DNA of 64,000 nucleotides from Alphaproteobacteria bacterium (GTDB taxonomy: Bacteria > Pseudomonadota > Alphaproteobacteria > JAAEOK01). Location of the stretch: positions 1 through 64,000 of the forward strand of contig JAAEOK010000112.1 in assembly GCA_024244705.1 (NCBI GenBank). Reading direction: 5' to 3'. The translations under genes and the position numbers were made by a program. The notes beneath the pieces are model-generated. The model saw nothing but the letters and a program-made list of their open reading frames with translations. It was not told the DNA's origin and did no database searches. Below are positions 34,563 through 39,172 of the stretch, in pieces; within the stretch, counting starts at the first letter, position 1, and every line of letters starts with the position of its first letter.

Positions 34563-36164
34563 ATGGCCGCCCCAATCCGTCCGCTGAAGCGGGCAGAGCA
34601 ACTCGCCGCCGCGAGCCGCTATGACGAGGCGGCCGAGATTTGTCGAAAAGTCCTGTCGATCGCCCCCAATCGGGTTCCCGCCCTGGTCTATCTTGGCCAG
34701 ATTTGCGAGACTACCGGTGCGATCGACGAATCCGCGGCCTTGTTCGACCGTGCCCTTGCGCTTCAACCAAGTGACCCGATCCGCTTTCGGCGGGCGACCC
34801 TGCTACCGGTGGTGGCTGACACGCCGCAAGTCTTGCACGCCGCACGCGCCGAAATGTGGGAGAGACTGGAAAGAATTAGCCAATCCCCGTTTTCGATTCC
34901 CAATCCGTTTCCCGCCGTGGGCCGGCTCGTTCCTCATTTGGCCTATCAAGGGGAGAACGACCGCGAGATCATGGTCAAGTTGTGCGACATTTTCAGACGT
35001 GCCACGCCGATGCTCAATCGTATCGCGCCTCACTGCCAGCCGCCGAATAGGCCGGCGCCCGGGTCGCGCATAAAGGTCGGTTTCGTCTCTCGTTTGCTCT
35101 ACGACCAGACCGTGGGCAATCTGCTGGAAGGAATCGTCGCCGGGCTGTCGCGAGAAAAGTTCGAGGTGTCGGTCTTCACGGCGGACAAAGGCCCGGATCC
35201 GGTGCATGCGCGCATCCGCGATACCGCCGATCATGTCCACATTCTGCCCGAAGGCCTAAACGCGGCCCAGCAATTGATCGCCAGTGCCGCCCAGGATGTC
35301 CTGATATTCGCGGGTATCGGGATGGATGCTTACCTCTATTTCCTTGGATTCGCGCGTTTGGCGCCGGTGCAGTGCGTCACCTGGGGTCATCCCGTTACGA
35401 CCGGCCTGTCGACCATGGACTATTTCATCTCATCCGTGGATATGGAGCCGGAAGGTGCCGAGGATCATTACAGCGAAAGATTGGTCCGGCTTCGCCGGCC
35501 ATCGATTTGCTACACCCTACCCCGCCCCGCCACCGACGGGCCGACGCGCGCAGAGCTCGGGCTGGACCCGGATTCTACCCTATATGTCTGTCTCCAGACC
35601 GTATCGAAGATGCATCCCGAGTTCGACGACATGATGGCCGGGGTTTTGCGCGAGGATCCCGCGGGTCGCGTTGTCCTGATGCGCGATCGTATCGACAGCC
35701 GACACCAGCGCCTCTGCCGCCGCCTTGCGTCGAACATGGGTGAAACCTTTGAACGGGTGTCGTTTGTGCCACGCCAAAAGCGGGACCGTTTCATCGCGCT
35801 GCTGGGACGCGCCGACGTCATTCTCGATCCCCTGCATTTCGGCGGCGGCCAAACCAGCCTCGAAGCGATTGCGGTTGGCGCTTCTATCGTGACCCTGCCG
35901 GGACGGTTCCGGCGCAATCGGATCACCTATGCCTATCTGAACTGGGCCGGGGTCACCGACACCGTCGCGCGGGATCGGGACGATTATGTTCGTATCGCCG
36001 CGCAACTCGGTCGCGCCCCTGAGCGCCGACGGGACATACGCGATCGCATTCTCGCCGGGCGGCGCCATGTCTTCGACAGTCGGACGCCGGTCGACGAACT
36101 GGAGGCGTTCCTCGATGCCGCGGTGCGCGGCGGCCCGGACGCTGTTTCCGCGATCGAAGCCTAG
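34563..36164 (+). CDS. TPR plus SPINDLY/OGT-like glycosyltransferase
   Basis: A 533-residue protein. Residues 1-75 hold two TPR units (AEQLAAASRYDEAAEICRKV, VYLGQICETTGAIDESAALF). After a linker, a GT41-like catalytic region shows IKVGFVSRLLYDQTVGNLLE, APVQCVTWGHPVTTGLSTMD (the O-GlcNAc transferase GHPxTTG motif), LYVCLQTVSKMHPEFDDMMA and DVILDPLHFGGGQTSLEAIA. Such enzymes glycosylate proteins such as flagellin or surface proteins in bacteria. The stop overlaps the stop of the IS5 remnant on the opposite strand by two bases. Confidence 0.86.
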   Translation: MAAPIRPLKRAEQLAAASRYDEAAEICRKVLSIAPNRVPALVYLGQICETTGAIDESAALFDRALALQPSDPIRFRRATLLPVVADTPQVLHAARAEMWERLERISQSPFSIPNPFPAVGRLVPHLAYQGENDREIMVKLCDIFRRATPMLNRIAPHCQPPNRPAPGSRIKVGFVSRLLYDQTVGNLLEGIVAGLSREKFEVSVFTADKGPDPVHARIRDTADHVHILPEGLNAAQQLIASAAQDVLIFAGIGMDAYLYFLGFARLAPVQCVTWGHPVTTGLSTMDYFISSVDMEPEGAEDHYSERLVRLRRPSICYTLPRPATDGPTRAELGLDPDSTLYVCLQTVSKMHPEFDDMMAGVLREDPAGRVVLMRDRIDSRHQRLCRRLASNMGETFERVSFVPRQKRDRFIALLGRADVILDPLHFGGGQTSLEAIAVGASIVTLPGRFRRNRITYAYLNWAGVTDTVARDRDDYVRIAAQLGRAPERRRDIRDRILAGRRHVFDSRTPVDELEAFLDAAVRGGPDAVSAIEA

Positions 36165-36520
36165 GACGTGAACTCATAGGCGCGTAGCGACAGCCTGATT
36201 GCGGCGAGTTTGATAAAGGCGAGGAAGTTCTCCGCCAGCTTGGCGTAGCGGGTCGCGATCCACCTGCAATGCTTGATGCGATTGAAGAACCGCTCCACGT
36301 GGTTGCGGTCTCGATTAAGATGCGGGCTGAAGCAGATCGGGTTTTTTCGGTTTCGTTTGGGCGGGATGTTTGCCCACGCTCCACGTCGCCGAACGAGACC
36401 TCTGATTGCATCCGTGTCGTACGCTCTGTCGGCGAGCAGCATGCCGTTACAGCGATGCGGCCGAGCCCCGCCCGCCGGAGCGCGTCGAGCGCTTGAGCTA
36501 TTTGAGGAGTCCGCGCACAG
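36161..36520 (-). pseudogene. IS5-family transposase remnant (C-terminal part)
   Basis: The minus frame ending at 36161 reads MLLADRAYDTDAIRGLVRRR, ANIPPKRNRKNPICFS, RNHVERFFNRIKHCRWIATR and ENFLAFIKLAAIRLSL, the C-terminal half of an IS5-type DDE transposase. The second Asp (LADRAYD) and the Glu (HVERFFNRIK) are present; the N-terminal half and first Asp are missing. Upstream of about 36450 the similarity becomes frameshifted and vague. The usual terminal inverted repeat after the stop is absent, because the neighbouring glycosyltransferase gene begins there. A dead fragment. Confidence 0.82.
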
Positions 36521-36637
36521 CACGCTCGCCAGACCCAAGAAAAAGAGCTACGAAGAGAAACAACTAACTTATTAACGAGGGAGCCGAGGCTTCAGACCAG
36601 CGTGTCGGCTGCTCTGTGGAATCAACTGAGGGACTGA

Positions 36638-37072
36638 ATGACAAAGCGAGGCCACTGCCTGTGCGGAAAAACACGTTGGGAGTATCAAGGCGAGGTAACA
36701 TGGGCCTGCTACTGTCATTGCGACGATTGCCGCCGCAATTGTGCTGCACCGGTGGTCGCGTGGCTCGGCGTGCCCGTCAAGAAATTCAGATGGTTGGGAG
36801 AGGCGCCGAAAACCCTCGAAAGTTCTAAAGGAGTAAGGAGGCACTTCTGCGAGACCTGCGGTTCCCCGATGGGATTTGAAGCGGATCATTACTCGGGCGG
36901 GATGCACCTTTACGCCGCTTCTTTGGAAGATCCCTACGATTTCGAACCGAGGTTCCACGTAAACTATGAAAGCAAGCTTCCCTGGCTTCAAATCAATGAT
37001 GATCTTCCAAAGTATGAAGGCACGTTGCTTCAGGCACCGGAAGACCTAAGGGACTATGAACCAAAAAAATAG
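36638..37072 (+). CDS. GFA family protein (CENP-V/Gfa zinc fold)
   Basis: A 144-residue protein from ATG 36638 with GAGGGA upstream. It has the zinc-binding cysteines of the GFA fold: HCLCGKTRW, WACYCHCDDCRRNCAAPVVA and RHFCETCGSPMGFEADHYSG, followed by MHLYAASLEDPYDFEPRFHV. The family is named for glutathione-dependent formaldehyde-activating enzyme, but most members have no proven activity. It lies between an IS5 remnant and a MITE-like element, so may have arrived or moved with mobile DNA. Confidence 0.88.
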   Translation: MTKRGHCLCGKTRWEYQGEVTWACYCHCDDCRRNCAAPVVAWLGVPVKKFRWLGEAPKTLESSKGVRRHFCETCGSPMGFEADHYSGGMHLYAASLEDPYDFEPRFHVNYESKLPWLQINDDLPKYEGTLLQAPEDLRDYEPKK

Positions 37073-37165
37073 GCGTGGATCGACATGGAGAAAGGACTTT
37101 CTCTGCGACGCCTGCGTTGAACGGCCGGTGGTTGGTCGCAAAGTGGAGTTCCGTTCCAGGCACTT

Positions 37166-37460
37166 ATACCAAATTGCACTGATATTGACTCATCTCATGG
37201 GAGCAAATCGGGTCATCCGGGCAGGCGCGGTGTGAAGCGCGATGCCGAGCATCGGGCGAGCGCCGCAACGCACACGGGGAACCGATTTGCCCCACCGCAG
37301 GCCGCGGTCTTTTGTCCGCTCACGTCGTTGCGAGCCGCTTGTGGTGGGTCGGCACCACGGCGCAGCCCGCGCCTGGTGAGCGGTCAAACCAGCCGCCTGA
37401 TTGGTGTCCAGCCCCTGGGGGTCACTCCAGAGATGGGTTAATATCAGTGCAACTTGGTAT
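37166..37460. repeat. MITE-like element with 31-bp terminal inverted repeats
   Basis: The left end (37166-37196) starts ATACCAAATTGCACTGATAT and the right end (37430-37460), read on the minus strand, starts ATACCAAGTTGCACTGATAT; over 31 bases 28 match, both ending CATCTC. The 295-bp element has a GC-rich core with no believable transposase. TTATACC occurs at 37164-37170 and again at 37460-37466, overlapping both ends; TTATA could be a target duplication. This explains most of the 520-base gap 37073-37593, which otherwise holds no gene. Confidence 0.75.
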
Positions 37461-37593
37461 TATACCCCGAGCTCCGGCCCGCACGAAATTGTCTTGGATC
37501 GGGGACTAAGCGGGCATTTTCCTGAGTGGGATCAGCGGTTCGCGTTTATGAGTACGCGGCCTAGTACACAAAGTGCTCTGGACAGGGCCTTCG

Positions 37594-38952
37594 TTACGGC
37601 GTGGGTTGGGTCCGTTCGACCGCACGCCACGTCGTCACCAACGACGCCAGCATGACCAAAGCAGTGGCAAAGAAGACGGCCCCGAAATCGCCAGTCATCG
37701 CGAACACGGTGCTGCAAACCGCCATGCCGATCGTGCCGCCCATCAACTGGGCGGTCAGGTTAATGCCGCCGGCCTGGCCCTGTTTGGCGTTCGGCACGGC
37801 GTTCATCACGGCGCGCTGAGACGGGACGAAGAGAAACGCCATTGTCCCGCCCCAGATAACAAGACCGGGGACCAATGGCGCGTAGTCGTTCCATGCCACG
37901 GCGATCCCGAGCCACATTAGGGCCACCGTCGAGACGGCCATCGCGGCGAGCAAAAGAATGCGCGATCCGAACTTGTCGGCGAGCTTTCCCGCGACCGGCG
38001 CAAGAAACGGATTCGGGATCACCGACACCACCAGGGCGAGGCCAGCAACCAACGGATCCATATCCAATACTTCCTGCAGGTACAGCGCGCCGAATATAAT
38101 CACGCCCATCTTGCTGAACTGACCCGAGAAGACACCGAAATTGCACGCCGTGAACGTGCCGTTACGAAACAGGTCGACTTCGATCAGGGGTGATTTCGCT
38201 CGCCGCTCGTGAATGACGAATACAAACAGCAAGAGCGCTCCACCGGCGAGCAGGGCGAGTATCAGCGGCTGCGACCATCCCCATTCGGGCCCTTGCATGA
38301 TGCCGAACACCAACATCGTGAGACCGCCGACCAACGTCACAAGCCCGCCACGGTCGATCGTCGTGGCTTTCTCCTCGCGGGGCGGGTTCTTCCATGCAGC
38401 CAGGACGACCAGCATGACGACGATTACGATCGGAAGATTGACCCAGAATATCCAGCGCCATGAAAGCGTATCGGTTAGCAGCCCGCCGACGAATGGGCCA
38501 AGCGACATGAACACGGTTCCGATTGCGCCATAGATACCCAGCGCCATGCCCCGTTCCTCGGGCCGAAAGACGATCGTGATCATGGCCATTGAGGCGGGAA
38601 AAATGACCGCGGCGCCAAGGCCCTGCACGGACCGGGCGGCCACCAGCCATGCGCCACTCCCGGCGAATCCCGAGACCAGCGAGGCCAAGCCGAATGTCGC
38701 CGCACCGATGAGGAAGAGGATCTTGAGGCCGATGATGTCGCCGAACTTGCCGGCCAGCGCGGCGAAGCATGCGAAGACCAGAAGATAGGAATTGACGACC
38801 CAATGGGCGACGACCAGCGACATGCCGAGATCGCCGCGCATGGTCGGCAGCGCGACGCCGACCACGGTCTCATCGAGCAGGATGAGACCGATGACGCCGC
38901 CCATCGCCGCCAGAATCCACCACTTCGCATGCCGATCGTCGATGGCGATCAA
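37594..38952 (-). CDS. MFS transporter of the DHA2 (EmrB/QacA-like) type
   Basis: A 452-residue polytopic transporter. Span 1 carries the DHA2 motif ILLDETVVGVALPTMRGDLG, followed by VVNSYLLVFACFAALAGKFG and motif A-like GDIIGLKILFLIGAATFGLA. Motif C appears as AIGTVFMSLGPFVGGLLTDT, then SWRWIFWVNLPIVIVVMLVV. The C-terminal half has GLALVVSVIPNPFLAPVAGK and LADKFGSRILLLAAMAV. Such proteins export drugs or metabolites by proton antiport; the substrate is not evident. It stands alone, between the MITE-like element and the TRAP genes. Confidence 0.88.
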   Translation of the reverse strand: MIAIDDRHAKWWILAAMGGVIGLILLDETVVGVALPTMRGDLGMSLVVAHWVVNSYLLVFACFAALAGKFGDIIGLKILFLIGAATFGLASLVSGFAGSGAWLVAARSVQGLGAAVIFPASMAMITIVFRPEERGMALGIYGAIGTVFMSLGPFVGGLLTDTLSWRWIFWVNLPIVIVVMLVVLAAWKNPPREEKATTIDRGGLVTLVGGLTMLVFGIMQGPEWGWSQPLILALLAGGALLLFVFVIHERRAKSPLIEVDLFRNGTFTACNFGVFSGQFSKMGVIIFGALYLQEVLDMDPLVAGLALVVSVIPNPFLAPVAGKLADKFGSRILLLAAMAVSTVALMWLGIAVAWNDYAPLVPGLVIWGGTMAFLFVPSQRAVMNAVPNAKQGQAGGINLTAQLMGGTIGMAVCSTVFAMTGDFGAVFFATALVMLASLVTTWRAVERTQPTP

Positions 38953-39172
38953 GGCTCACATGTCTCCATCGCAACTCGAGAGATCGGCCCTGCCCAGCTT
39001 CAGCGCCTTATGCGCCCTAGCGGCGACAATCCGAAGGCATACCAAGAACCAGCGGATGGCCGCCCGCCCTTTCCCGATCACACCGACATATCACTTGTCG
39101 TCGATCGGAAAAGGCGAGCGGCCCGCGACTCACGGAATCGTTAGGTCGCCTACTATCCGCCTAGCCCGACCG

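Follow-up and report, generated by a model that had tools for sequence, protein, structure and literature searches.

A putative IS630-type miniature element carrying a conserved two-arm body in Alphaproteobacteria

Miniature inverted-repeat transposable elements (MITEs) are usually thought of as a pair of transposon ends with filler between them. Four described kinds of repeat come closest to the element reported here. The RUP elements of Streptococcus pneumoniae are MITEs mobilised by IS630; in the accessible part of the source they are described as short (107 bp), non-coding and strongly folding, with IS630-type terminal repeats and insertion at targets containing TA (PMC2229807). For the CIR repeats, known from Caulobacter and Brucella, the same source has a second-hand description: two arms connected through a linker, about 110 bp in all, no terminal repeats, and GANTC at the hairpin loop (PMC2229807). 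CGTC-tagged REPs are palindromic, often arranged in head-to-head pairs, found mostly in Alphaproteobacteria and thought to act as RNA; as far as the source is accessible, they are single stems of 8–9 bp with loops of 4–5 bases and no associated transposase (PMC3733652). Finally, MITEPye1 of Paracoccus yeei is an alphaproteobacterial MITE with IS-like ends, of IS1182 type, and a strong predicted RNA fold, for which the available portions of the paper report no conserved two-arm body (PMC11578231).

The present element lies in a window of 64,000 nucleotides, the whole stretch of DNA that was analysed, on contig JAAEOK010000112.1 of a 4.5-Mb alphaproteobacterial draft genome in 127 contigs (GCA_024244705.1). 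It resembles RUP in its shortness, non-coding nature, IS630-type terminal repeats and strong fold. It differs from RUP in its native length of about 263–266 bp, in a three-base TNA duplication at targets that include TCA and TGA, and in a two-arm body common to elements with other ends. With CIR it shares the class, the two hairpin arms and, in some copies, a GANTC site; the size, the terminal repeats and the position of GANTC set it apart by description alone. The likeness to CGTC REPs ends at the arms, which here are built of three helices (24 pairs) inside a transposon-like frame, and identity with these REPs was rejected since the stem size does not fit. Among the matches listed from the full-text literature, whose coverage leaves out most subscription papers, including the CIR paper, there was no description of the two-arm body; nor is it described in the accessible parts of PMC10969869, PMC1273637, PMC2229807, PMC7589603, PMC3733652, PMC2873474 and PMC11578231. 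We class the element as a MITE, a known kind, whose body may deserve more. Here the filler is the conserved part, with covarying helices, a non-standard loop motif, a nearly fixed spacing of the arms, and an arm that recurs within different ends. We give a probability of about 0.7 to the reading that this is a non-autonomous IS630-type MITE carrying a conserved two-arm body whose arms act as RNA.

The strongest inverted repeat of the window (31-base arms, span of at most 400) is formed by positions 37166-37196 and 37430-37460, which pair at 28 of 31 positions, whereas the best inverted repeats in five first-order Markov controls reach only 21–24 pairs. Recount and controls bear out the 28 matches over 31-bp termini given in a preliminary description of this DNA. 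The TTATACC that it placed at both borders is also seen, as cacTTATACC on the left and GGTATTATACC on the right; its informative part is the direct repeat TTA at 37164-37166 and 37460-37462, read as the two copies of a target duplication, and the TACC after the right-hand TTA is not part of the element. The left terminal inverted repeat, TACCAAATTGCACTGATATTGACTCATCTC, is an IS630-type end holding GACTC and occupies 37167-37196 on the forward strand; the right one occupies 37430-37459 on the reverse strand. Between them lies the core reported as GC-rich and non-coding, which is indeed GC-rich and holds short overlapping ORFs only. Two hairpin arms lie in it. Arm A runs inward from the left end on the forward strand (37207-37286, or about 37198-37294 with the outer helix, according to the fold), and arm B inward from the right end on the opposite strand (37310-37390). 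Folded as single-stranded RNA, the 295 bases reach -168 kcal/mol, where shuffled versions average -120 (z -8.5). A reading as an intrinsic terminator was rejected, the signal over positions 36600-38000 being not above chance (one terminator-like site, 1.6 expected).

The 295-bp extent given in the preliminary description holds as a span, but 46 of these bases (37384-37429) are foreign, and native full copies measure 266 bp. The foreign bases are part of a stretch that matches an insertion sequence end at 96–100% in eight other places of the genome. Seven of these places are within 200 bases of a contig end; the contigs concerned are C4, C6, C8, C17, C45, C73 and C77, and since they end at copies of the insertion sequence, it is this sequence that breaks the assembly. 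The tail of a reading frame beside the end matches rve_3, an IS3-type integrase core (E 0.0005, below the curated cut-off). In the window copy the remnant is joined to the element on both sides: the insertion sequence terminus directly abuts the native right repeat, and the other side joins at a short common stretch, CGG.CAAA. The remnant is absent from the other full copies. It was presumably left by an insertion followed by a deletion. Both this scrap and the conserved two-hairpin core common to elements with other ends had been missed earlier.

Searching the genome by BLASTN for multiple copies had been suggested as a check. Together with end patterns, it gave three further full copies of 266 bp each (C64, C49, C82), one chimeric copy of 220 bp and two fragments (C67, C42), with unrelated flanks. 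The element is short and without coding capacity, has terminal inverted repeats and a target duplication, and occurs in several copies at unrelated sites; these copies, the target duplications and the full-length IS630-family relatives with ends of the same kind, both described below, support the MITE-like nature first proposed. Over 265 aligned bases, the window copy and that of C64 have 228 in common. Identity of the body is 91% (query 15-223), while left end against left end gives 20/29 and right against right 22/29; within the window copy, left and right ends agree at 26/29. The ends of the two copies have diverged together, and more than the body. In the chimera (C82:39007-39226), which has ends of the window kind, the interior runs into the end of an AGAGC-type family; the join apparently lies within the common arm, which suggests recombination between families.

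Elements with paired ends of the window kind (ATACCAA) are here called F1, and 27 were compared. Their lengths range from 44 to 352 bp, with 13 of them at 260–266 bp. The 29-base end pattern retrieved 18 stretches from a collection with named species; the titles of these records refer to Alphaproteobacteria, to groups inside that class, or to no more than Proteobacteria/Pseudomonadota. With at most two mismatches, the 31-base pattern occurs in 6 of 385 alphaproteobacterial genomes, that of the window included. Against viral contigs, the first end pattern gave no stretch, and two other patterns gave two stretches and one stretch. The window element had no match to plasmids in a distant blastn search, in which other copies did find plasmid relatives; further matches had E of 1 or worse, and the records inspected held no element.

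The same triplet, always TNA, stands on both sides of 19 of the 27 F1 elements, and the flanking triplets differ in the remaining 8. When triplets were paired across elements, 176 of 702 pairs were identical, and none of 20000 shuffles reached 19. The count left out a 41-bp palindrome in L077 and the copy of Ensifer sp. LC163 in L084, the latter looking identical to a copy in L072. A filled site is provided by a plasmid of Agrobacterium sp. MA01, where a 263-bp two-arm element (ATACC...GGTAT) has TCA on both sides; related plasmids of Agrobacterium sp. RAC06 and Rhizobium rosettiformans are the empty counterparts, with a single TCA. At the level of these aligned plasmids, precise insertion with TNA duplication is demonstrated for the MA01 relative. 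The empty-site evidence comes from that relative, the genome of the window being the sole one examined for its genus, family and order. Palindromes of 59 bp and 41–44 bp, with little beyond two F1 ends, were seen in L071, L074, L079, L082, L083, L072 and L077, several of them between identical TNA flanks; they are solo-end derivatives of the family. Two F1-ended elements seemingly have a single arm (L174, a plasmid of Rhizobium sp. SSA_523, 2501-2669; L088, 1501-1664), although the arm model described below scored no arm in L174. Such elements could be either ancestors or derivatives of the two-arm form.

A source for the transposase is suggested by one of the five plasmid hits to the F1 end, an IS630 element of Rhizobium sullae, with about 1.16 kb between its ends and the domains PF13358 and NF033545 (E 5.7e-45 for the latter). 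Among eight IS630 relatives fetched, five (L176, L178, L179, L180, L182) have ATACC-type ends on both sides, as located by script or in printed strings, and each of these is flanked by TTA or TAA on both sides; the other three lack such ends. In each of the five, GACTC stands in one end and GAACCC or GAACTC in the opposite one, and the window element has a similar asymmetry (GACTC and AACCC). In general, GACTC or GAATC, that is GANTC, the CcrM-type methylation site, is often found in one end only (37187-37191 in the window; L176, L179, L180, L182), and by eye no printed element of the F1 set has it in both. Duplication of a TA dinucleotide is typical of IS630. Here, by contrast, the duplicated unit is TNA, and the targets TCA and TGA contain no TA. 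Judging from the ends that it has in common with full-length IS630, the window element would be an IS630-derived MITE, probably mobilised by that transposase. The preliminary description had suggested a mobilising transposase elsewhere in the genome. The assembly does not bear this out, offering only four matches to IS630 transposases, all below the family cut-off. One of them is a C-terminal fragment (C50:124942-125070 and downstream) that keeps an end like the right end of the window element, with agreement at 21/29 positions, and at 18/29 with the right end of C64. An intact IS630 copy could be missing because the assembly is in 127 contigs.

Taken in the direction from its own end towards the centre, each of the two arms of the body aligns with the other. 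A model of the arm, R1, was built from 23 arms of F1 elements, arm A of the window being among them and arm B outside the alignment. Its predicted structure has 24 pairs in three helices, and 20 of the 24 show double changes in the training arms. Searching the window with R1 (cmsearch) gave 75.2 bits for arm A, 69.3 bits for arm B and one further match of 14 bits (E 0.26). The genome of the window holds at least 32 arms at E ≤0.01, a lower bound because 150 of 6692 candidates were scored. In the class, the arm occurs at E ≤1e-5 in at least 43 of 385 alphaproteobacterial genomes and at least 33 of 277 genera, likewise lower bounds because at most 12 candidates per genome were scored, under stricter filters. 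A further 69 arms came from searching 45 loci that had not contributed to the training set. They lie within other or undetermined ends, none of them within F1 ends where these could be determined, and one of the 69 rows repeats, on the reverse strand, a place that another row already covers. In these arms, 92.2% of the cells pair, double changes occur in 22 of the 24 pairs, and covariation scores 0.592, compared with 0.157 (sd 0.009) when shuffled and 0.066–0.099 when slid, figures that flatter the structure somewhat because the alignment was fitted to R1, which favours standard pairs, and because the arms are related.

Near the foot of the middle helix lies a 2x2 loop that R1 treats as unpaired columns. 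It reads 5' GC/3' AA in 31 of the 69 further arms, 5' GA/3' GA in 31 and otherwise in 7; in the training arms the corresponding counts are 15, 7 and 1. GA/GA is the arrangement of tandem sheared G-A pairs. Membership in a known RNA family was rejected, the 4227 Rfam models giving no match in positions 36000-39000 of the window at E up to 1, and none at the elements of eight further loci at E up to 0.5. The sole match was away from the element: a suhB (mmgR) small RNA in L158 (2671-2745, 63.8 bits), about 0.9 kb from an element.

The arms also show a strand preference. At the paired positions of the 23 training arms, G-T combinations number 51 and A-C combinations 7 (28:5 in left arms, 23:2 in right arms). 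When the structure was derived from Watson-Crick pairs only, the figures were 46 and 14. Folding of the reverse-complement alignment is far less favourable (-12.6 against -39.3), and the structure derived from it gives 28 G-T and 24 A-C on that strand. The 69 further arms have 89 G-T and 24 A-C (40:11 and 49:13 by locus strand), the asymmetry being weaker in the other families of the window's genome (28:17) than in other genomes (61:7). The terminal stems, on the other hand, have 8 G-T and 9 A-C in ten orientable elements, or 20:16 when six others are added as they stand. Since G-T exceeds A-C in the arms and not in the ends, it seems that one strand of each arm is the functional one, namely the strand that runs inward.

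In the reading that we prefer, an IS630 (Tc1/mariner) transposase acting in trans would recognise the TACCAA...TTGGTA ends and insert the element at TNA, duplicating the three bases; this role is suggested by the common ends and the common triplet pattern. Carried along between the ends would be a conserved body made up of two related arms, which converge in nearly all cases and start about 104 nt from each other. The strand on which each arm is predicted to fold is the one running from its own end towards the centre. A transcript or replication fork entering from either side would thus first meet an arm in working orientation. The arm would then fold as RNA in transcripts entering from a flanking gene, and the folded arm might alter the processing or stability of the 3' part of the message, making the insertion tolerable or useful. 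In the window copy, the IS3-type scrap would have been left later, at the base of arm B.

The strand asymmetry itself does not separate RNA from single-stranded DNA, so that a serious alternative, which we nevertheless hold to be unlikely, is that the arms work as single-stranded DNA hairpins. Arising, for instance, in the template of the lagging strand or through extrusion of a cruciform, these would be bound by a host or transposition protein, and the inverted pair would offer one correctly oriented arm for either direction of replication. The elements are near-palindromic and mobile, a strand preference and a G-A loop motif are equally possible in DNA, and the near-invariance of the loop bases is what a protein site would show. 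However, the outer ends, the presumed DNA recognition sites, have no strand preference (8:9), unlike the arms. We know of no protein partner of the arms. The R1 model gives a handle for finding what binds the arm and whether neighbouring messages depend on it. Either way, the body is best read as a portable structured module, an RNA or a single-stranded DNA hairpin, with a presumed function.

The portability of the body appears from the ends found around it. Besides the genome of the window, ends were examined at 29 loci (L139-L167, the best arm of each genome), with an outer repeat score of at least 14. Outer inverted repeats are present at 21 loci and span 261–313 bp end to end, 19 of them 261–274 bp; at the other eight no outer repeat was found, and seven of these eight reach a contig end within about 110 bases. 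Three of the 21 have F1 ends (ATACCAA), eight have AGAGC near the tip, four AGCCC, two GGAGCC and four are singletons (AGTGGACAGGG, TAGGTTGTATCGACAG, TAGTGTGGTGCGCG, GGTGCCAAGGTC). For the 30-base tips of the four kinds with at least two members, the within-kind mean best identity is 0.56–0.77, above all 200 shuffles. Between kinds (28 comparisons), identity is mostly at the shuffled level. AGAGC against GGAGCC and against TAGTGTGG exceeds all 200 shuffles (0.48 and 0.52), and the values for AGCCC-TAGGTTG, ATACC-AGAGC and AGAGC-TAGGTTG are reached by 3, 4 and 7 of 200 shuffles. As judged by these tips, some kinds appear weakly similar to each other. The three well-populated kinds (ATACCAA, AGAGC, AGCCC) clearly differ; to arrive at five or more kinds, the singletons have to be included.

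In the genome of the window, the body is also carried by two further end families. TAGCCCGCATTTCTCACCA may be an IS1380-type end and GGAGCCTGTCTGAGC an IS5-type end. A search for an autonomous partner of the TAGCCCGCATTTCTCACCA ends gave 67 places in three of five genomes; near three single ends, seven reading frames contained no transposase in NCBIfam, and four of about the same frames none in Pfam. As to the geometry of the arms, two were detected at 21 of the 29 loci, convergent in all 21 and 102–107 nt apart from start to start in 19; at the other eight loci one arm place was detected at E ≤0.05. A two-arm element in L073 (2707-2888), both of whose arms match R1 on the same strand, counts against convergence as a requirement.

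If the ends change and the body stays, something selects for the body; and because the hairpins recur across Alphaproteobacteria within quite different ends, it is suggested that they are kept for a reason. A more far-reaching proposal, which we put forward tentatively and at somewhat less than even odds, is that the two-arm body is a portable strand-specific module taken up by MITEs of several transposase systems in Alphaproteobacteria, the ends having been exchanged around it. What is conserved would then be the module and not the transposon ends, and the module would work at the level of RNA or of single-stranded DNA, serving either its own propagation or the host.

These comparisons across end types also bear on the view that the element is an ordinary MITE with a neutral, quasi-palindromic interior, in which matched helix changes would arise from template-switch correction during replication and not from selection. 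In its favour, the two terminal repeats of the window copy have changed in concert, as such correction or end exchange would give. Correction should, however, erase mismatches, yet the non-Watson-Crick 2x2 loop is kept and covaries between its two main forms. G-T and A-C would be expected in equal numbers, in place of the 51:7 of the training arms and the 89:24 of the further arms, and both the size (261–274 bp in 19 of 21) and the spacing of the arms are maintained in different genera and within different ends. This view is already disfavoured and we regard it as improbable. Most improbable of all is membership of the element in the CIR repeats of Caulobacter and other Alphaproteobacteria, for which the class, the two arms and the GACTC in one end of the window copy could be cited, since CIR is described, in the part of the source available, as less than half as long, without the long terminal inverted repeats found here and with its GANTC at the loop, whereas the GACTC of the present element lies in a terminal stem and is absent from several copies (PMC2229807).

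For the preferred reading, that of arms acting as RNA, the neighbourhood of the window copy is also relevant. The genes on its two sides are both directed towards the element: upstream, one for a GFA-family protein (PF04828; 36638-37072, forward strand) and, downstream, one for an MFS transporter (PF07690; 37594-38952, reverse strand). These convergent neighbours fit folding of the arms in transcripts that enter from a flanking gene, as a single case. By a crude rule based on ORFs, which gave a wrong reading for the window itself, the genes around 47 elements were co-directional in 22 cases, convergent in 16 and divergent in 9. The window also holds, a short way upstream of the GFA gene, a fragment of a DDE transposase (PF13586, PF01609) of 125 codons, at 36161-36538 on the reverse strand.
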